DNA of 64,000 bases from an uncultured Ignavibacteria bacterium. GTDB lineage: Bacteria; Bacteroidota; Ignavibacteria; Kapaibacteriales; Kapaibacteriaceae. Every line of letters starts with the position of its first letter. Position 1 is the stretch's first letter. A model generated the notes under the pieces. The model saw only the letters and a list, made by a program, of their open reading frames with translations. It made no database searches and had not been told where the DNA came from. Positions 17,131-50,971 of this stretch are shown piece after piece. Where the stretch lies: assembly GCA_903939735.1 (NCBI GenBank), contig CAJAIA010000012.1, forward strand, positions 1 through 64,000, written 5' to 3'. Both the position numbers and the translations under genes were made by a program.

Positions 17131-17138
17131 CAAAACTA
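17131..17138 (-). promoter_or_regulatory. -7 promoter element of fumC (TAGTTTTG)
   Basis: The minus strand reads TAGTTTTG, a perfect TAnnTTTG (Bacteroidota sigma-ABfr -7 consensus), 35 nt before the fumC ATG. Its TAG is also the stop codon of the upstream RND-TolC gene, so the promoter is embedded in that gene's 3' end. The -33 element is not obvious. Confidence 0.45.
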
Positions 17139-20100
17139 CGGACTCAGCGTTCGCACAAGAGCCCCCTTCAGACGGAGAATCTCCACATGTACAAGTCGTT
17201 CCTGGTACGCCAGCCGTGATTCGCCTTCTGCTTCTTGCAAATACGACACTAACGACTGCCGCACTTCAAGTGGTGTTACACTGCCGATACGCAGTTTCTC
17301 CACGGCTACGCGTGCGTTACGCTCAGCAGCGACAAGTGATGCTGTTTGGATGCGACGCTGCTCTTGAAGCGCAGCATGGGTGCGATATGCCCGGTCGATC
17401 TGACCGCGTAGATCATTGCGGATGGCATCGATCGATATCCGTGAGCGCTCTTCATCAAGCTTGGCAAGCTGTCGGTCGTAGGCATCACTCAAGCCATTGA
17501 AGAGATTCCACTGCAACGTTGCGCCGATGTACGCGCCATTTGATCGGTTCTGCAGGAGGAAACCTGCATCAGACGTGTTGCGTGTAACCTGATACGCCCC
17601 CTGCACTGCAATCCGTGGCAGAAACGTCGCCGTTACCTCGGCGACATGTGCTGATGCCTCCGCCAGCGCATGCTGCGCTGCAAGGACATCCGGATTAGTT
17701 CGGTCGATGTCTGCTTGCACCAGAGCTTGCTGAGGAAGCTCGGGCATCGTCATCGAATCACTCACCCCAAACGGCGTAGCAGGATCACGTCCGAGCATGG
17801 TGTTGAGTTCCGACATCTGATTGCCGAGTTCCATGCGGTTACGCAGTACCACAAGCTCTGCATCGTACTTGTCGATCTCGGCTTGACGTAACTCCACACC
17901 GGATGCGGAACCGCCTTCAACGCGGTTACGCTCGATATTGTACCGCTGTGTTGCGAGGACCTTGGCCGAATCTGCCTGCTTCAAGAACTGGGTTGTTGCA
18001 ACAAGCGCGCTATACTTCGTGATCACGTCAGCGACGATGAACTGCAGCTTGCTCTGCACGATTGCTAAGCCACGACGTTCAGCTGCCGATAAGCGATCCG
18101 CTGCAGCAAACATTCGCAGTCCATCGAACACCGTCCAGCTGAGAATACCTACGGCGTTCATGTTTGAATACCCGGCTCCATTCCGCTCAATAATCTGTCC
18201 GCTCGCAAGAACCTGCGTCAGATTATTCGCACCATCTGCATATGTAGCCGAGATCGATGCTGTTGGCAGGAATCCGGTGATCGCTCGACTTCCTGTAATG
18301 CGCGCTGCTGATGAATCCTGTCGTGCCAGACGGACGTCGTAGTTGCGCGTGATCGCGAGCGATAATGCTTCGTCAAGCGTCAATGTTTGCGATGCTGCCG
18401 TTGCCGATGCGCACACAAGAATTGCTGCACCAATCATTGTGGCAACGGCGCTCGAACGCACACCAGACGGCGTGTGATGAGGCTTCTCGCGCTTGAAGCG
18501 CGATAGCACAACGTAGAGCGATGGAATGATATAGAGCGTGAGGAACGTTGCCAGGAACATACCCCCAACGACAACCACACCCATACCGACACGACTCTCC
18601 GATGCCGCACCGAGCGAGAACGCAATTGGTACCGAACCGAGAATCGTTGCAAGCGATGTCATGAGAATCGGACGGAAGCGAAGTGCAGCTGCCTCGCTCG
18701 CTGCATCATGCCACGTGCTTCCCTCTTCACGACGTTGGTTGGCCACCTCAACAATGAGGATGCCGTTCTTTGTGACAAGACCGATGAGCACGATGCTGCC
18801 GATCTGCGAGAAGATGTTTAATGTGTCGCCACTGACCCACAGCGAGAGCACGGCACCTGCAAGCGCTAGTGGTACCGTGAGCATAATCGTGAGAGGATCG
18901 ATCCAACTCTCGAACTGTGCCGCGAGAATCAGATACACCAGGACAAGTGCCAAGAGGAAGGCAAACAACAAGCTCGACGAACTCTCGCGGAAGTCGCGTG
19001 AAGGTCCGGTGAGTGCTGTCGAATACCGTTCATCAAGCTGCTGCTTTGTGATCGACTCCATCGCTGTGATACCGTCTGCAATTGTCTTGCCCGGGGCTAG
19101 ACCCGCGCTGATGGTGGCGCTCACTGCACGGTTGTACCTGTAGAGCTGCGGCGGTACGCTTTGCTCACGGAGCATCACCAGGTCGGCAAGGGGCACAAGT
19201 TCGCCGCTCGACGTGCGTACGGAGATCATGCGAAGATCATTTGGCGTGCTGCGCTCGCGACGTTCAATTTCACCGACTACTTGGTACTGCTTCCCATCAC
19301 GAACAAAGTACCCAAAGCGCTGTCCTGCATACCCTGCTTGAATTGCTGTTGCGATGTCCGACACCGAGATACCGAGTTCGCGCGTGCGCAAGCGATCAAC
19401 TTCGAGAGCTACTTCCGGCTTGGTGAACTTCAGATTGATATCAACAACGCTGAACGTAGGATCCTTCTGTGCGGCTTCCATTACCGTTGGCAATGCACTA
19501 CGCAGATCCTCGAGCGTTGGAGCTTGGACAACCACCTGAACGGGCAAACCGGCACGTCCACCACCGGTAGTGATGGTCTGCTCTTGAATGACAACAGCAC
19601 GCGCGTCGGTTGTCTTACGCATCGTTGCGGTGAGCAGCGGTGCAATCTCCATCTGCGAGCGTTTGCGCTGCTCTGGTTCAACGAGGATGATGCGTGAGAA
19701 TCCTGAATTACTTCCACCCGAGAAGAACGACGGCGATGTCACGGTGAGGACGAGTTTCTTTTCTGGAACAACACGTGCAATGCGTTGCTGCGTGGAGTCC
19801 ATGATTACGTTCATGCGATCAAACGTTGTTCCCTCGGGAGCAGTGAGGTTCATCGTGATCACACTTCGATCCTCGAGCGGCGCAAGCTCGCTCTTGAGCG
19901 TCGCTCCGAGTCCGAACAGCAGCGCAATAGCAGCGAGAATACCTGCGATAGCGATCAACGGACGATCGATCACTACGCGCACCGAGGCGGCATAGGTTGA
20001 GGTAAGCCATTGGAAGAACGGCTCTGTAATGCGCACCAGAAGGTTGTCATCCTCTTTGCGCAACAACCGCGTGCTCATCATGGGAGTAAGCGTGAGCGAT

Positions 20101-21527
20101 ACAAAGGCCGATACCAGCACTGACGATGCGACAACGAGACCGAATTCGCGGAACAAGCGCCCCGTGATTCCCTGCAAGAAGATCACCGGCAAGAACACCA
20201 CCGCAAGCGTGACGGTAGTCGAAATGATTGCGAAGGTGATTTCCGACGATCCCTTCTCCCCCGCCTCGCGTGGATGTTCACCATGCTCGATGCGCTTGAA
20301 GATGTTCTCCATCATCACGATCGCATCGTCAACAACCAGACCCGTTGCGAGCACCACACCAAGCAGTGTAAGCAGGTTGATTGAGAAGCCGAAGAGCCAC
20401 AGGAAGAAGAACGCCGACACCAGCGATACCGGAATCGCAACGACCGGGATGATCGTTGCTCGCCAGGAGCGCAGGAACATGAAGATGATCAGCACAACGA
20501 GACCGAAGGCGATCAGCAACGTCTCGCGTACTTCCTCGATCGCTTTGCGGATAAACGTCGTTGAATCGATTGCGAGGTCAAGACGCAGATCCTTTGGTGC
20601 TTGTGCCTGCAGATCAGCATAGCGACGATAGAACTCATCGGCGATGTCGATCTGATTCGCACCCGGTTGTGGTGCGATCGCCATACCAATCATCGGCACA
20701 CCATCGCGCTTAAGGATTGTGCGTTCGTTTTCCGCGCCCTGATACACGCGGGCAACATCACGTATGCGGACGATGGCATCGTTCTCTGCACGCAGGATCA
20801 CATCTGCGAACTGCTCGGGCGTCGACAAGCGACCGACGGTACGCAGCGAGAGTTCTGTCTCGCTCCCTTCGAGGCGTCCAGCAGGAAGTTCAACGTTCTC
20901 GCGCTGCAACGCTGCACGAACATCATTCGTCGTAAGACCATACGCAGCGAGTTTACCCGGATCCATCGCGATGCGCATCGCGTAGCGACGTTCACCCCAG
21001 ATCGTAATCGAACCCACACCGGCAATTGTTTGCAGACGTTCCTTAAGAACATTCGTCGCGTAGTCTGTCAGCTCAGTAAGTGATCGACCCGAGCTTTGCA
21101 CCGTCATCACCACAATGGCCTGGCTATTGGCATCGGCCTTGGCTACAACAGGCGGATCGACATCGGCCGGGATTGAGCGCTTTGCGCGTTCAACACGGTC
21201 GCGCACGTCGTTGGCAGCTTGTTCAAGATCACGACCCAGCTCAAACTCCACCGTAATCGTCGAGCGTCCGTCGGCGCTTGTTGATGTCAGCGAACGGATA
21301 CCATCGATACCATTGATCGATTCTTCAAGGGGCTCGGTGATCTGTGATTCAACAACGTCCGCATTCGCACCCGTATATGTCGTTGTCACCGTGATATTCG
21401 GCGGATCAACATCCGGGAATTGTCGCACGCCGAGGAATGACGCACCAACGATGCCCATCAGCACGATGATAAGACTAAACACGACCGCCGTAACAGGACG
21501 ACGGATGGAGAGGATGCTGATATTCAT
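17136..21527 (-). CDS. RND efflux permease (HAE1/AcrB type) fused to a TolC-family outer membrane factor
   Basis: One uninterrupted frame of 1463 residues. Residues 1 to about 1015 are a complete RND pump: N-terminal [20 protein letters not shown], proton-relay [19 protein letters not shown] around residue 400, and the C-terminal TM block through [20 protein letters not shown]-like sequence. A linker and then a hydrophobic, signal-peptide-like segment follow ([19 protein letters not shown], about 1025-1044). Residues 1045-1463 are a TolC/OprM-type protein ([18 protein letters not shown], then coiled-coil helices and [20 protein letters not shown]). The inner segment could be cleaved by signal peptidase to release the channel. 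It overlaps the adaptor gene (ATGA). The predicted role is proton-driven drug or metabolite export. Confidence 0.9.
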
Positions 21528-22582
21528 CGCACCCTTGCCTTCACGGGCTGTCCGTTCTTCACAAACAGAATCCCACTCACAACAACCGTGTCGCCCGGTG
21601 TAATGCCTGTAAGCACGTGTACATGCGTTGCGGTACGACCGCCAAGCGTTACCGGCACCATACGTGCGATACCACCCTCAACGCGATACACTGTTGCACC
21701 CGACTGGTCTTGCACTACTGCCTGACTCGGCAGAAGAACTGCTTCTGGTTGTTCATTGAGTGCGATGATCACATCTGCAAATGCGCCGGCGTTAAGCGTG
21801 CGTGTATCATCGATGCGTGCACGCAGACGTTGTGTGCGTGTGCGCATGTCCACCATGGGCTCGAATGCACGGATACGTGCCGTGCGCAGCACAGAGTCGG
21901 TACCACGAACACGGAAGTTCAACACCGACCCAACGCGAAGCGAAGCGGTATAGCGCTCCGGCACAGAGCAGTCAATGTTGAGTTCGTTCACATTCGTCAG
22001 CGTAACGATCAGCGTTGAAGGTGCGATCACCGCACCAACCGACACTTGACGAAGTCCGACCACACCAGCGAACGGTGCGCGAATCTCTGTCTTTGCGAGT
22101 GCCGCGTTTACTTCATCGATCTCTGCCGTGCGCATCGCCACTTGTGCGGCTGCCGCTTCGTAGTCATCGAGTGATGCTCCATCGACAGCGCGCAGGCGTT
22201 CTAGGCGCTGTTTGCGATTTGATTCAAGTGCAAGTTGTTGTTCGAGCTTCTTCTTGCGCGCACGCAGGTCATCATCTGCCAGTTTCACCAGTAACTGTCC
22301 GGTGCGGACACTCGCCCCCTCGACAAATCGGATCTCCGTTACACGTCCGCCTACTTCCGAGCGTAGCTCCACCGACTGTTCTGCTTGCACCGTGCCAGGC
22401 ACCGTAACCGATTCACGGAAGGACTCAGCCACAACACGCATTGCCTCCACGGAAGGGGGCGGCGCTTGACGTCCGACAGGGCCTCCAGGTTGAACAGGCG
22501 CATCGGAGGGCTTCCGTAACAGGAAGAACGCACCAATGGCGAGAATGAGCACCATGGCTCCGAGTGCTAGGCGACGTGTCAT
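21524..22582 (-). CDS. RND efflux periplasmic adaptor (membrane fusion protein, AcrA type)
   Basis: Protein of 352 residues from the ATG at 22582. An in-frame ATG at 22621 exists, but the chosen start gives a proper N-terminal anchor (MTRRLALGAMVLILAIGAFFLL). Next come a Pro-rich linker, a lipoyl/biotinyl-like half motif (VPGTVQAEQSVELRSEVGGR), a coiled-coil hairpin (about 100-160), the second lipoyl half (TEIRAPFAGVVGLRQVSVGA), a beta-barrel and a membrane-proximal domain. It links the inner membrane pump to the outer membrane channel. It precedes and overlaps the fused RND-TolC gene by 4 nt, so all parts of a tripartite pump are in two genes. A GAACTTTG element lies 6 nt before the start. 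Confidence 0.9.
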   Translation of the reverse strand: MTRRLALGAMVLILAIGAFFLLRKPSDAPVQPGGPVGRQAPPPSVEAMRVVAESFRESVTVPGTVQAEQSVELRSEVGGRVTEIRFVEGASVRTGQLLVKLADDDLRARKKKLEQQLALESNRKQRLERLRAVDGASLDDYEAAAAQVAMRTAEIDEVNAALAKTEIRAPFAGVVGLRQVSVGAVIAPSTLIVTLTNVNELNIDCSVPERYTASLRVGSVLNFRVRGTDSVLRTARIRAFEPMVDMRTRTQRLRARIDDTRTLNAGAFADVIIALNEQPEAVLLPSQAVVQDQSGATVYRVEGGIARMVPVTLGGRTATHVHVLTGITPGDTVVVSGILFVKNGQPVKARVR

Positions 22583-22588
22583 AGGCTG

Positions 22589-22596
22589 CAAAGTTC
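22589..22596 (-). promoter_or_regulatory. Probable -7 element of the RND operon (GAACTTTG)
   Basis: The minus strand reads GAACTTTG, one mismatch from TAnnTTTG, 6 nt before the adaptor ATG. The context CTTTGCAGCC is the same as that before the OmpA gene at 31045. It faces away from the TAAATTTG element at 22638. Confidence 0.3.
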
Positions 22597-22637
22597 GGGA
22601 ATCACAGGCCATCTGCCACATACGCCAAGATCTACGC

Positions 22638-22702: not shown

Positions 22703-23044
22703 ATGAAGAAACACCTCCTTCAATTCCTCCTCGTGCTCCTGCTCGCCCCAACAATGCTGTTTGCCGCTGAGCAGTCACTTTCACTCAAGGTTTCGGGTAA
22801 TTGCGGCTCCTGCAAGAAGCGCATTGTCAAGGCTGCTACGTCGATCGAAGGCGTATCAGATGCCTCGTGGGACAAGAACACGAAGGAATTCACGGCGACA
22901 TACGACGATGCCAAGGTCAAGCCGGAAGACATCAAGAAGGCCATTCTCAAGGCTGGCTACGACATCGAGGGCGCCACAGCCGAGCAAACAGCCTACGACA
23001 AGCTCCCGAGCTGCTGCAAGTATCGCGACCGCACGCACGAGTAA
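22703..23044 (+). CDS. Secreted heavy-metal-associated (HMA) domain protein
   Basis: Protein of 113 residues with a signal peptide (MKKHLLQFLLVLLLAPTMLFAA) and one HMA domain. The metal-binding loop is SGNCGSCKKRI (Cys34 and Cys37), followed by the expected VEGV-like IEGVSDASWD and FTATYDDAKV strands. The second conserved hydrophobic motif is AGYDIEGA. The C-terminal tail has an extra CC pair (LPSCCKYRDR), as in several Bacteroidota HMA proteins. It probably binds copper or another soft metal in the periplasm. The ATG at 22703 is chosen because it starts the signal peptide. It is divergent from the RND pump operon and is followed by a strong terminator. Confidence 0.88.
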   Translation: MKKHLLQFLLVLLLAPTMLFAAEQSLSLKVSGNCGSCKKRIVKAATSIEGVSDASWDKNTKEFTATYDDAKVKPEDIKKAILKAGYDIEGATAEQTAYDKLPSCCKYRDRTHE

Positions 23045-45127: not shown

Positions 45128-45135
45128 TATCATTG
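45128..45135 (+). promoter_or_regulatory. Possible -7 element before the TolC-family gene (TATCATTG)
   Basis: TATCATTG, one mismatch from TAnnTTTG, ends 3 nt before the ATG at 45139. It would give an almost leaderless transcript for the exporter operon. Confidence 0.3.
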
Positions 45136-45138
45136 TCT

Positions 45139-46491
45139 ATGACCGGTGTCCGTCATCTTTTCCTCGCACTGTCAGTCCTCGGCACACTGCACGTTGGCGT
45201 TGCCCAGGAGCGTGGAGCGCAGCGTCTAACGCTGAAGGAGTGCATTCGGATCGGGATCGACAACAGCTTCGATCTCAAGGAAACCTATGCTTCCTCACGT
45301 GCTGCAGGAGCTGGGCTCACGCAGGCATTTGGAGCCTATCTGCCATCAGCTGACATTTCGGCCAACTACTCTCGACAGCTGACGAATCTGCGAGAGCAGT
45401 TCTCGATCGTCAACGGTGTTCCAATTGTGGGTCAGCCCCTTCCCAACACCTACGGCTTGAATGGTCAGATGAATCTGACACTGTTCAACGGATTTCAGCG
45501 TGAGTCGCAGTATGATGCTGCGCAGAGCTCGGTGGAAGCTGCATCGGAGGACATTCGCACAAGTCGCCTTTCGATTGCGTTCAATGTTACACGGAACTAT
45601 ATCGATGTGCTCCGCCGACAGCAGATCCTCTCGGCTCGCGAAGAAAATCTTGCGCTGAGTAAGGCAACCTTCGAACGCATTGTTGCGCTCAAGGAGGCAG
45701 GTCGATCAACGATCCAGCAAGTGATGTCGCAAGAGACGGAACTAGCCAATCAAGAAGTATCGGTGGTGACTGCGCAGAACGACCTGGATGTCGCGAAGGC
45801 CACACTCCTTGCCTCAATGAGTGTCAATCCAAGTCAGTCGATTGAAATCGATCCGTCATCCCTCCTTGGCGATGTAACGGCATCGACCGTTACGACGTTT
45901 CGGGGTCGCGTCGGACCTGAGCCTGTGGCGATTCAGCGCGCCTTTGCAACACGCCCCGATATTATGTCGACGCAGATGCGAGTCGATGTTGCAAAGTCTG
46001 GAATCACAACTGCCGAGTCTGGCTACTGGCCTACACTGACAGCTGTTGGCGGCTATACGTGGCGCAACTTTACCATTGCCGACTTCGACCGTCAAGGTCA
46101 GGTGTACGTCGGACTCAACGTGCGCGTCCCTGTGTTTGATCAGTTCACGACCAACGCAAACATCGAAAACGCAAACCTCTCGCTCACACGTCAGCAGATG
46201 GCACTTGCACGCTTACAGAATGACGTACGCACAAATATTCGAAGCGCGTTTCTGCAGCTCGGCGCTGCTGAAAAAGGTCTCGACATTACCGAGCGTGCGC
46301 TACGTGCAGCACTTACGAACTTCAATGCCGTGCAAGAGCGTTTCAGCGTTGGATCGGCAACGCTCCTTGATGTTCAAACGGCGAACAATCAACTCATCAC
46401 TGCCCGTGTCAATCGTGTTACCGCAGTCTATGCCTACCATGACGCGGCGACCTTCGTTGAATTCACTATCGGCACTTACGGAGATCAGTAA
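45139..46491 (+). CDS. TolC-family outer membrane efflux protein
   Basis: Protein of 450 residues from the ATG at 45139, opening a signal peptide (MTGVRHLFLALSVLGTLHVGVAQ). The OEP pattern follows: LTLKECIRIGIDNSFDLKET, long coiled helices, then SIAFNVTRNYIDVLRRQQIL, repeated after the middle with DVRTNIRSAFLQLGAAEKGL. This is the duplicated alpha-barrel/beta-barrel structure of TolC channels. It heads a five-gene operon with an adaptor, an ATPase and two permeases, so it is likely the exit duct of a MacAB-type exporter. Confidence 0.9.
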   Translation: MTGVRHLFLALSVLGTLHVGVAQERGAQRLTLKECIRIGIDNSFDLKETYASSRAAGAGLTQAFGAYLPSADISANYSRQLTNLREQFSIVNGVPIVGQPLPNTYGLNGQMNLTLFNGFQRESQYDAAQSSVEAASEDIRTSRLSIAFNVTRNYIDVLRRQQILSAREENLALSKATFERIVALKEAGRSTIQQVMSQETELANQEVSVVTAQNDLDVAKATLLASMSVNPSQSIEIDPSSLLGDVTASTVTTFRGRVGPEPVAIQRAFATRPDIMSTQMRVDVAKSGITTAESGYWPTLTAVGGYTWRNFTIADFDRQGQVYVGLNVRVPVFDQFTTNANIENANLSLTRQQMALARLQNDVRTNIRSAFLQLGAAEKGLDITERALRAALTNFNAVQERFSVGSATLLDVQTANNQLITARVNRVTAVYAYHDAATFVEFTIGTYGDQ

Positions 46492-46493
46492 GT

Positions 46494-47786
46494 ATGGCAA
46501 AGAAGCGCTCCCGGAAGGGACTCATCATTACTCTTGTTGTTGTGGCACTGCTGATAGCAGGCACTGTGGTGATCATTCTCCGCTCTGGCGACGAAGGACC
46601 GGTCCTCGTCAGTGTTGAGCCAACAGCTACACGGACAATTACACAAACTGTCAGTGCTATTGGCAAGCTTCAGCCGGAGCACATGGTGAAGATCTCCTCT
46701 GAGGCCAGCGGTGAGATCATCTACCTCGGCGCCAAGGACGGCGACATGGTCAAAGAAGGGCAACTCCTTGTCCGCATTCGTCCCGACATCCTCGAGTCGC
46801 AGCTTGCACAAACCCGTGCTGCTACCGATGGCGCGCGCATGGAGATCACCATTGCGAAGGCAGAGCTTGATCGCTCAGAAGCCGACCTCAAACGTGTGAC
46901 CGAGCTCTACAAAAAGGAGTTCGCGTCGAAGGAAGAATTCGATCGCGCTAAGGCATCATATGAATCGGCGGCAGGTCGCTATGCGCAGTCACGGTCGGAA
47001 TATCAACGCTCGCAAGGTGCACTGCAACAGACACAGGCGTCAGCAAGCCGCACGATGATCTATGCACCAATGAGCGGCACAGTGACGTACCTAGGCGTAG
47101 AGACAGGCGAGAAGGTTGTGGGCGTAGCCCAGATGCAGGGCACCGAGATGATGCGCATCGCCAACCTTGATACGATGAATGCATGGGTTGACGTGGATGA
47201 AAACGACGTCGCGCTGATCGGCATCGGGGACACAGCACGCGTGCGTGTTGATGGTCTGCCAAACACAACACTGCGCGGCGTTGTCTACGAGATCTCCCAT
47301 TCGGCAACAGTTAGCGCGGCAGGGACACAAGAAGAAGTGGTGAACTTCCAGGTCCGCATTCGCTTAGTCGATCGCGATGCGCGTATGCGCCCTGGCATGT
47401 CTTGCAACGTGGATATCGAAACAGAGACAAAGTCTGATGTGCTCAGTGTGCCGATCCAATCGGTTACCGTGCGTCAGGATGCAAATGGAGGAAAGACCGA
47501 GGAAGATCCTCAGGTTCAGCAAAAGAAACCTTCATCAATGGAAGCCAAGCGTCCCGAGAGCATCGTATGGGTGTATTCAGGCGCAACAGTCACATCGCGT
47601 GCTGTGAAGACAGGCATCAGCGATCAAGGATACATTGAGATTCTGAGCGGACTCAAGCCCGGCGAGCAAGTGGTGTCGAGCCCGTACCAGGCTATCAGTA
47701 AGCTGCTTACCAATGGCGCGCCTGTCCGCGTCGAAGATCCATCAGCACGGAAGGAACGATTCCGTCAACTTCGCCAGCAGCAATGA
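46494..47786 (+). CDS. MacA-like periplasmic adaptor (membrane fusion protein)
   Basis: Protein of 430 residues. N-terminal anchor [21 protein letters not shown] after a basic KKRSRK. First lipoyl half [20 protein letters not shown], coiled-coil hairpin about 100-180, second half [21 protein letters not shown] beta-barrel and a membrane-proximal domain ([20 protein letters not shown]) follow. A Lys/Gln/Ser-rich insert lies around 330-360. It starts 2 nt after the TolC stop and overlaps the ATPase gene by 4 nt. Confidence 0.9.
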
Positions 47787-48487
47787 GTCAGCCAATCATC
47801 GAAATCGCGAACCTCGTCAAGAGGTATGAGATGGGCGACGAGGAAGTGTTTGCACTTCAGGGCGTCACGCTCACCATTGGTCGCAATGAGTACGTCGCAC
47901 TGATGGGTCCGTCCGGCTCCGGTAAGTCGACCCTCATGAACATGCTGGGATGTCTCGACACTCCAACGTCGGGCTCCTATCTGTTCACCGGGGAGAACGT
48001 CAGCGATATGGACGATGATGATCTTGCCGAGATTCGGAATCGTGAGATTGGCTTTGTGTTCCAGACCTTCAACCTGTTGCCACGCGCTACCGCGTTGCAG
48101 AACGTTGAGCTTCCTCTTGTCTACTCCGGTATGGCACGAGAGCAGCGGATGCAACGTGCAACAGAGGCACTCACGCGAGTGGGCTTGGCCGACCGCATGG
48201 ATCATAAGCCGAATGAACTCTCAGGTGGACAACGTCAACGTGTTGCTATCGCTCGCGCACTGGTAACGTCGCCAAGCATCATCCTCGCGGATGAACCAAC
48301 AGGTAATCTCGACAGTAAGACCGGACAAGATATCATGCGACTGTTTGGCGAGCTCTGGCGAGGCGGCAATACAGTGATTCTTGTGACTCACGAAGAGGAT
48401 ATCGCACGCCATGCACGACGTATCATTCGTCTGCGCGATGGTCGTATTGAATCCGATGAGGTAAACCCCCATGCTCCGTTGGCCTGA
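47783..48487 (+). CDS. MacB/LolD-type ABC transporter ATPase
   Basis: Protein of 234 residues. Walker [10 protein letters not shown] (42-50), Q-loop [20 protein letters not shown], signature [15 protein letters not shown] (from about 145), Walker B with [15 protein letters not shown] (about 167-180) and the His switch in [11 protein letters not shown]. The GNLDS and NVELPL motifs are typical of the MacB/LolD/FtsE group. The ATPase is a separate chain here, unlike fused MacB. It is translationally coupled at both ends. Confidence 0.94.
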
Positions 48488-49730
48488 ACTCCAGGAGTCA
48501 TTCCGCATAGCGACGTCGTCGCTTCGCGTGAACCTCCTTCGCTCGATTCTCACGACAGCTGGCGTTGTGGTGGGAGTGGTGCTCGTGGTGCTCATGGGAT
48601 GGACAATCAATGGTCTTGATGCCGTGTGGGAGCAAACGATCTCCATCATTGGCAAGGACATGATGTACATCGACAAGTGGAACTGGGCAGGGGGCGGCAA
48701 CTGGCGCAAAATGGAAGCACGCTCGAACATCACACTTGATCAAGCACTGCAATTACAGCAACGCATGGAGTCGGCCGAAGAAATCATCCCTCTCATTCGT
48801 AAATGGGGCGGATCGGTATCGCTCGGAAACACCAGCATTCGATGCTCCGTTACTGGCACAACGGCTGCCTATGGTAACACTGCCGCAGGGACGGCCGCAG
48901 CTGGACGCTTCTTCAACGATGTTGAAGAGCAGAGCGCGGATAACGTTGTGGTCATCGGCTACAACGTCAACAAGAACTTGTTCCCTACATCATCAGCCGT
49001 CGGACAGTATATCAAGATCGCTGGCATTCCCTATCGTGTTGTTGGTGTGATTGAGAAACGAGGTTTTCTCTTCATGGACTTCGTCGACAACGAAGTGTTC
49101 ATCCCGCTGCACGCATTTCGCGGTGCGTATGGATTTGTTGGACGGAGCTTCTCGGTAGGCATCAAGACTGGCAGCGAGCGCTTGCTCGACATCGTGCGCG
49201 ATGAAGCAACGGGCCACATGCGATCGATTCGCAACGTATCGCCACTCGATGAAAGTGACTTCTCGATCAATGAAATGAAAGCCTTTGATCAACAGGCCAA
49301 GAATATCCGTGTAGGAATCTGGGTTGTTGGTATGGGGCTCACAATTCTTGCGTTCATCGTAGGATCAATCGGCATCATGAACATCATGTATGTGTCGGTT
49401 ACCGAGCGCACGAAAGAGATTGGCGTGCGAAAGGCAATCGGTGCGCGCCGTTCGTCAATCCTGCTTCAGTTCTTGATTGAATCAGCCTTGCTCTGTGTAA
49501 CAGGCGCTGTGATTGCCTTCCCTATTGCACAGGTGCTGGTAGGCTCAGCCCGATTCCTCGCTGTATCGGTGTTTGAGCTCGACTGGATCTCGGTGGTAAG
49601 TCCGCTGATACCGCTCGATCTTCTGGGTATCGCCGTAGGCGTATCGATCCTCGTTGGACTCCTGGCTGGTTTGTTGCCAGCTATCAAGGCATCGGCACTT
49701 GATCCTGTGGAGGCACTGCGCGCAGAATGA
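48471..49730 (+). CDS. MacB/FtsX-type ABC permease, first of two
   Basis: Protein of 419 residues with the MacB topology: TM1 near 25-45 ([20 protein letters not shown]), a large periplasmic domain, then three C-terminal TM helices. The conserved FtsX segment is [20 protein letters not shown] followed by [20 protein letters not shown]. It overlaps the ATPase gene by 17 nt and the second permease by 4 nt. It probably forms a heterodimer with the next gene product to drive mechanotransmission across the periplasm. Confidence 0.92.
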
Positions 49731-50971
49731 ACGCTCTTGAGTCCATATCCATCGCTATCGATGCCGTACGCTCGCAAAAGCTCCGGTCGAGTCTCACCCT
49801 GCTTAGTATCGGCATAGGCGTGTTTGCGATCATTGCTTCAACGTCCATCATGAGCACACTGCAGCAAGCAGTAAACGGACAGCTTGCCGACCTCGGCGAG
49901 AACTCGATCTTGATTCAGCGAACACCAACGATCAACTTCGGAACGAACTGGGCGAAGATGCGCAAGCGCAAGAACATCACCTATGCACAGGCGCAGCAGT
50001 TTCGTGATCGCATGACTACCACACAGCTGATTTCCATCAGCAACGAATCACCTGCATATACGATTAAGGCTGGACTCGAATCGACGAATCCTGATGTTTC
50101 ACTGATCGGTATCGACGATCAGTACTTTGCCGTCAACGCGATCACGATCGGAGAAGGTCGGTCCTTCATCGAATCGGAAGTCATCTTGAATCGCCGTGCA
50201 GCCATTATCGGAACAGACGTGGTAAAAGCACTCTTCGGACAAGGCAGTGCTCTCGGGAAGACGATTACGATCAAGAACCAAGAGTTCGACGTCATCGGCA
50301 TTCTTGAATCCCGCGGTGGTGTGCTCGGCCAGAGTCAGGATAATCGTGTGCTCATCCCCATTACGGTGTTCAATCGCTACTACACCTCCGAGTGGGATGC
50401 CAGCGTTGACATCTCAGTCAAGGCCGAATCGAAGCTTACGCTTGAGTCGACATTTGATGAGGCTGTTGGTGTGATGCGTGCATTGCGCTCCGTCAAGCCG
50501 TGGGATGAGAACAACTTTGAGATCGATACGAATGATGCGATTACCGGACAGTTCAGTGGATTTTCGTCTGCGCTGTTGATCGTTGCGTGGATTAGTGGTC
50601 TCGGCGCTCTCGTTGCAGCAGGTATTGGCATCATGAACATGATGCTCGTCAGCGTCCGCGAGCGCACGCGCGAGATCGGTGTCCGCAAAGCACTCGGAGC
50701 ACGCAAGCGCTGGATCGTGCGGCAATTCCTAATCGAGAGCATCACCTTGTGTCAGCTAGGTGGTCTTACCGGTATGATCGGTGGTTTGGGATCATCGTGG
50801 GCCGTCACGGAGATACTCCGCGGCACGATGCCGTCGCTGTCCTACGTGATGCCATGGGGCACGGTTGTGTTCAGCATTGTGATCTGCACGGTGATTGGGA
50901 TCGGCTTCGGACTCTACCCCGCGTGGCGAGCCGCAACGCTCGACCCAATTGAAGCATTACGCTACGAATAA
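49727..50971 (+). CDS. MacB/FtsX-type ABC permease, second of two
   Basis: Protein of 414 residues, paralogous to the preceding permease (IGIMNMMLVSVRERTREIGV then RKALGARKRWIVRQFLIESI). It has the same one-plus-three TM layout and ends in LDPIEALRYE, the usual MacB tail. The periplasmic domains of the two permeases differ clearly, which suggests a heterodimeric transporter. Last gene of the exporter operon. Confidence 0.92.
   Translation: MNALESISIAIDAVRSQKLRSSLTLLSIGIGVFAIIASTSIMSTLQQAVNGQLADLGENSILIQRTPTINFGTNWAKMRKRKNITYAQAQQFRDRMTTTQLISISNESPAYTIKAGLESTNPDVSLIGIDDQYFAVNAITIGEGRSFIESEVILNRRAAIIGTDVVKALFGQGSALGKTITIKNQEFDVIGILESRGGVLGQSQDNRVLIPITVFNRYYTSEWDASVDISVKAESKLTLESTFDEAVGVMRALRSVKPWDENNFEIDTNDAITGQFSGFSSALLIVAWISGLGALVAAGIGIMNMMLVSVRERTREIGVRKALGARKRWIVRQFLIESITLCQLGGLTGMIGGLGSSWAVTEILRGTMPSLSYVMPWGTVVFSIVICTVIGIGFGLYPAWRAATLDPIEALRYE

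Follow-up and report, generated by a model that had tools for sequence, protein, structure and literature searches.

Tripartite efflux pumps of the AcrAB-TolC, MexAB-OprM and OqxAB type consist of an RND permease, an adaptor and an outer-membrane channel, in which the pump and the channel are separate polypeptides. Both the RND protein and the channel are trimers in the 3:6:3 pump (PMC4754349). Fusion of an RND permease to a channel is already known as a kind from the CusA/CzcA pumps; a search of the open-access literature for published RND-channel fusions returned nothing specific, which is weak evidence. In Bradyrhizobium, the FbcH precursor joins cytochrome b to cytochrome c1 and is cut at an internal signal sequence, a cleavage that has been experimentally established. 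FbcH is likewise a single precursor for a membrane protein with several spans and a partner that is exported, although its proteins are respiratory and unrelated to those described here. The present locus has an RND protein, an adaptor and a channel all homologous to those of the AcrAB-TolC, MexAB-OprM and OqxAB-type pumps, including the proton-relay residues, but encodes the pump and the channel as one chain.

The window (the whole 64,000-nucleotide stretch of DNA analysed) belongs to a genus placed in Kapaibacteriaceae, Bacteroidota. An open reading frame at 17136-21527 on the minus strand begins with ATG and could be translated over 1463 codons with zero internal stops. Pfam analysis placed two OEP stretches (E 4e-30) behind an ACR_tran domain at residues 5-1008 (E 2.6e-292) on the same chain. 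The permease part (residues 1-1012; 18492-21527, minus strand) scored 972.7 bits against PF00873, for which the cut-off is 28, and covered profile positions 3-1020 of 1021. The channel part (residues 1047-1463; 17139-18389, minus strand) matched PF02321 twice with 105.5 bits against a cut-off of 22, placing it in the TolC/OEP family. Between them lie a linker and a predicted internal signal peptide (residues 1013-1046; 18390-18491, minus strand), delimited by hydropathy and by the junction alignment. The adaptor (periplasmic membrane fusion protein, 365 aa; 21524-22621, minus strand) is encoded directly upstream as the first gene of a two-gene operon; it contains HlyD_D23 and belongs to the RND_mfp family by its score against TIGR01730 (234.9 bits, cut-off 94.9). 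Its stop codon overlaps the ATG of the fusion gene by 4 nt (ATGA, 21524-21527), and all three tripartite components are encoded in this one operon. The initial annotation had proposed a complete pump and a complete channel in one polypeptide and a tripartite system encoded by two overlapping genes; the continuous frame, the full-length PF00873 match, the TolC-fold half, the TIGR01730 match and the 4-nt overlap bear out both proposals.

A divergent neighbour at 22703-23044 on the plus strand encodes a small exported heavy-metal-associated (HMA) protein (PF00403, E 1.2e-9). An HMA gene stands beside the adaptor in G000 (the window's genome), G001, G002, G003, G004, G006, G007, G017, G020 and G021. 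Since this neighbour is kept in ten of the genomes examined, a metal role is conceivable for the pump; the association may reflect a metal-related role or co-regulation with the pump operon. Elsewhere in the window (45133-50971, plus strand), a MacAB-like ABC export operon could be observed, which includes a stand-alone TolC-family gene of its own.

The class of the pump was evaluated from profile scores and from conserved residues. HAE-type multidrug profiles scored highest for the RND half, with 749 of the required 940 for TIGR00915 and 1049 of 1250 for NF033617, both below the curated HAE1 cut-offs, while the HME CusA-CzcA profile TIGR00914 reached 390.5 of 701.45. Because the HAE scores of the RND half fall under the HAE1 cut-offs and yet lie far above its heavy-metal score, it is described here as HAE-type and not as a formally filed HAE1 member. 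A phmmer search of solved structures matched AcrB/MexB/OqxB-type pumps with E values down to 1e-174. The proton-relay Asp-Asp pair (VVDDA, TM4) and Lys (TKNG, TM10) aligned with those of a solved multidrug pump. By these sequence features, the protein is an HAE-type RND pump and a putative drug-type exporter.

The same-frame fusion was found in 13 of the 20 Kapaibacteriaceae genomes that could be scored, that is, in the window's genome and in 12 other species (G002, G003, G004, G005, G007, G012, G013, G015, G017, G018, G020 and G021); in G010, G016 and G022 the locus was missing or too fragmented for scoring. The initial annotation had named two ways in which the fusion could fail, a hidden stop or frameshift at 18380-18480 and relatives that always have two separate genes. 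No hidden stop was present in that interval, the in-frame fusion in 13 of the 20 family genomes means that it is not a sequencing error, and the RND-OEP order in one frame recurs in the 12 other species. Six relatives possess separate genes, namely G001, G006, G008 and G009, all of the window's genus, together with G014 and G019. In five of these, the channel ATG overlaps the RND gene's end, and in G019 it lies 7 nt past the RND stop. G011 is also split, and its copy groups with outgroup sequences.

The fused or split state required three changes on the RND tree and three on the channel tree (bootstrap range 3-3), compared with a mean of 8-9 when the labels were shuffled, and the fused clade was nested among exclusively split outgroups. 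Under a two-rate model, the family ancestor was fused with a probability of 0.97, and the fit of a gain-only model was 8.3 log units worse. On these trees, the simplest history would be a single basal fusion in the family with at least two subsequent fissions. The fusion is therefore conserved and yet labile, with at least two reversions to separate genes. An ancestor with overlapping genes, from which the fusion arose many times, is considered rather unlikely. In its favour, an out-of-frame CATG occurs in the fused genes of G003, G007 and G012 near the position at which the channel starts in split relatives. In the outgroup G038, too, the two genes overlap. Such vestigial out-of-frame ATGs are suggestive of repeated fusion and not decisive, as this stretch has many His codons and the ATGs may be due to chance. 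Moreover, repeated fusion would need at least six or seven gains, against three steps for one gain and two losses, and the results of the two-rate and gain-only models also speak against it.

Several further features of the family copies were observed. In the branch of G014 and G019 (L126, L174), the adjacent adaptor gene has been lost and the neighbourhood differs; by eye, the RND gene lies beside PIG-L-like and symporter-like genes. In the channel tree, G001, G006, G007 and G009 fall outside the rest of the genus, unlike in the RND tree, which may be due to fast evolution or to replacement of the channel. The RND gene of G008 (L115/L015) is broken over several frames and the adaptor of G004 (L176) lies in two frames; both may represent assembly errors. 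CAMCXP010000062.1 (L009) carries a 95% identical copy that groups in the window's genus, and its Melioribacter roseus title looks wrong.

The joint between the two halves is short. It comprises the end of TM12, a charged linker with an n-region of the type KREK..R, a hydrophobic core at approximately 1028-1041 (mean hydropathy of about 2 over 19 residues) and a c-region TAAS. Among the 13 fused orthologs, pairwise identity is 19% in the linker and signal, whereas the mature channel reaches 47% and the TM12 end 72%. Within this variable stretch, position -1 is Ala, Ser or Gly in every fused ortholog (13/13), position -3 is Ala, Val, Ile or Ser in 12 of them with Met in the remaining one (G017), and position +1 is Gln in 12/13, the exception being AEA/R in G021 (the slash marks the predicted cut). 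When the residues after the hydrophobic core were permuted over 12 fused junctions in 2000 rounds, a small residue followed by Gln was recovered in a mean of 3.7 junctions and a maximum of 10, whereas 11 of the 12 real junctions carry it. In Bacteroidetes, substrates of signal peptidase I follow a Q-rule, whereby a Gln is exposed by the cut and then cyclised (PMC5837995; PMC10653852). The features of this rule are all present at the junction, namely a charged n-region, a hydrophobic core, small residues at -3 and -1 and Gln at +1, and the stand-alone TolC-family gene of the MacAB-like operon in the window has GVA/Q at its signal peptide. The window's genome encodes two homologs of signal peptidase I and one of LspA. 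The internal signal-peptide-like helix described in the initial annotation is supported by its core and by the conserved -3/-1/+1 pattern; as a minor correction to the position near residue 1044, the best predicted site lies between S1046 and Q1047 (18390/18389, within 18387-18392, minus strand), as indicated by column conservation, the shuffle control and the alignment to TolC residue 1. Simple repeats with ACG, ACAGCA and GTCAT units keep the frame in the linker or signal of G013, G020, G002 and G004. These repeats suggest rapid turnover of the joint, and expansion of such units may be how it evolves.

An AlphaFold model of residues 1003-1463 (mean pLDDT 74, with the linker itself low) revealed the TolC order of helix-strand-strand-helix-helix occurring twice, with a long helix as the fourth element. 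VIA-align aligned the model to TolC, VceC, OprN, OprM and CusC with Z 22-25 over approximately 390 residues, the alignment to TolC reaching Z 24-25 (24.8) with 392 residues aligned, and Foldseek matched 1ek9 with an E value of approximately 1e-16. In the structure alignment, residue 1 of mature TolC corresponds to residue 1049, two residues past the predicted cut.

Our favoured explanation, proposed with good confidence, is that the fused precursor would be cut by signal peptidase I to give a 1:1 pair of RND protein and channel, with the adaptor made separately. Starting from the continuous frame, the complete halves, the conservation of the fusion, the cleavage-site pattern and the reversibility in relatives, we infer re-engagement of Sec, cleavage, pump assembly and function as follows. 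One precursor would be made from the gene, and its RND half would insert with twelve transmembrane helices so that its C-terminus is cytoplasmic. Together, the linker with its positive charges and the short hydrophobic helix would then serve as an internal signal peptide, engaging Sec again and bringing the channel half across to the periplasm. A cut by signal peptidase I between S1046 and Q1047 would provide the channel with an ordinary TolC N-terminus; the freed channel would proceed to the outer membrane, while a short 13th hydrophobic segment would remain as a tail on the RND half. The two trimeric parts of the 3:6:3 pump, permease and channel, would thus be made 1:1, whereas the adaptor, of which twice as much is needed, would stay in its separate overlapping gene. 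A 1:1 precursor with a separate adaptor therefore fits the known stoichiometry, and the exchange of fused and split forms within one genus is as expected if the mature proteins are identical. The internal export signal is very probably cut, with the halves acting as separate proteins.

It is also conceivable, but appears doubtful, that the fusion serves assembly too, so that the pump and the channel would be made, inserted and possibly docked in cis before the cut; each RND system would then have a dedicated channel, and precursor processing would be a general means by which Kapaibacteriaceae build their tripartite pumps. The 2.5-Mb genome of the window carries three RND-channel fusions of different descent.

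A chain that remains uncut, in which the internal helix would anchor the protein as a 13th transmembrane segment and keep the channel attached to its pump, would agree with the h-region, which is hydrophobic enough to span a membrane, and with the retention of the fusion in most of the family. Only about 7 residues, however, separate the hydrophobic core from the equivalent of mature TolC residue 1, and the periplasmic parts of the RND protein and the channel reach 7 nm and 10 nm, respectively (PMC4754349), so that such a tether is too short. Within the linker, only the -3/-1/+1 site is conserved, a paralogous fusion in the same genome (C41, described below) carries a lipobox, and relatives make the two parts separately. 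An uncut chain is thus regarded as improbable.

Equally improbable is that ribosomes restart inside the junction and make the channel alone, the fused reading being incidental. In the window, an in-frame GTG (1023) and an ATG (1031) precede most of the hydrophobic core, and the channel of split relatives begins at overlapping ATGs. Nevertheless, the junctions of G004, G013, G015 and G017 contain no ATG, GTG or TTG at all, so the channel and its signal can come only from the fused reading in these four relatives, and for at least four species internal initiation could be rejected as the general origin of the channel. A Shine-Dalgarno-like match is present in just 2 of the 13 fused junctions, and a start at 1031 would yield a signal peptide without a positive n-region. 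An artefact of sequencing or assembly, by which two overlapping genes would have been read as one open frame, has practically no probability left, for although the same-genus G001, G006 and G009 do have two overlapping genes with the channel in the +1 frame, such that one indel would separate the fused and split states, the reading is refuted by the same fused frame in 13 independently assembled genomes, by two relatives of 90-95% identity that differ in junction length while all keep the frame, and by the phylogenetic clustering of the fused or split state (3 changes, against 9 in shuffles).

The CusA/CzcA (HME) RND-channel fusions of Bacteroidota share with the window gene the order of parts and the logic of the junction (TM12 end, charged linker, signal-like helix, mostly a small residue before Gln, channel), but the class of their RND protein differs from the HAE-type pump. 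All 18 long CusA-type frames that were checked, including the one of the window's own genome, proved to be continuous RND-channel fusions. The copy in the window's genome encodes 1442 aa (C24, L119, 2036-6364, minus strand) with the junction TPAHA/DRE, and the 17 further fusions were verified in relatives; all have internal signal-like helices, and a small residue followed by Gln is present in 13/18, which speaks for the cut proposed in the window gene. Such fusions in Bacteroidota had been named in the initial annotation, which also expected a fusion to be rarer in the HAE1 branch. For the samples taken, this expectation agrees with the counts. The best 150 matches listed to the RND half from 395 Bacteroidota genomes included nine from Kapaibacteriaceae, and the 141 from elsewhere in the phylum contained no fusion-length frame. 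A second HAE1 group yielded two true fusions among 150 matches listed, one in the window's genome (C41) and one in G041, compared with 18/18 for the CusA-type frames checked. No fusion was present among approximately 150 matches listed from 249 Pseudomonadota genomes, nor in 80 matches from 12 other genomes. All long matches were translated as a check. In the second HAE1 group, 22 of the 150 listed matches had looked long and were mostly in-frame neighbours parted by a stop, or unjoined; in one example, a stop had been read across (1062+1+470=1533). The long Pseudomonadota matches in G671 and G632 were likewise not fusions once translated.

The window gene is nevertheless not the only HAE1-channel fusion, as at least one more origin is present in the same genome and the arrangement occurs again in other families. 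C41 (1517 aa; L118, 2706-7259, minus strand) is an HAE1-NodT fusion with both halves over the curated cut-offs. Like the window gene, C41 and the fusion of G041 place an HAE1 pump and a channel in one chain; C41 differs in having a signal peptidase II signal and a NodT-type channel and shows 36% identity in the RND half, and it represents a separate fusion event. Its internal lipobox, GLQSC followed by KVGPDYVRP, precedes the channel. When a channel is lipidated, its N-terminus sits in the outer membrane (PMC13082787), and the C41 chain must therefore be cut. A C41-type fusion of 1505 aa was also found in G005 (C10), and the lipobox fusion of G041 (L179) is related. In family f7, two HAE1-channel fusions have low-complexity linkers before the internal signal peptide, one of roughly 100 residues in G036 (L121, 3211-8073) and a shorter one in G028 (L122, 1344-5984), with predicted cut sites TSA/Q and MFA/Q, respectively.

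RND-channel fusions being known as a kind from CusA/CzcA, the present gene is a variant with an HAE-type pump, and its fused and split forms occur in one genus. The finding is of moderate interest for these natural forms and for the three differently processed fusions in one genome. It indicates that a single precursor, processed by signal peptidase, can supply both a drug-type efflux pump and the channel through which it empties across the outer membrane. If the precursor is cut, the ratio of pump to channel would be fixed at 1:1, while the adaptor would be dosed separately. As one genus contains both fused and split forms, and one genome both lipoprotein and non-lipoprotein versions, natural variants could be used to test how this linkage affects assembly and efflux.
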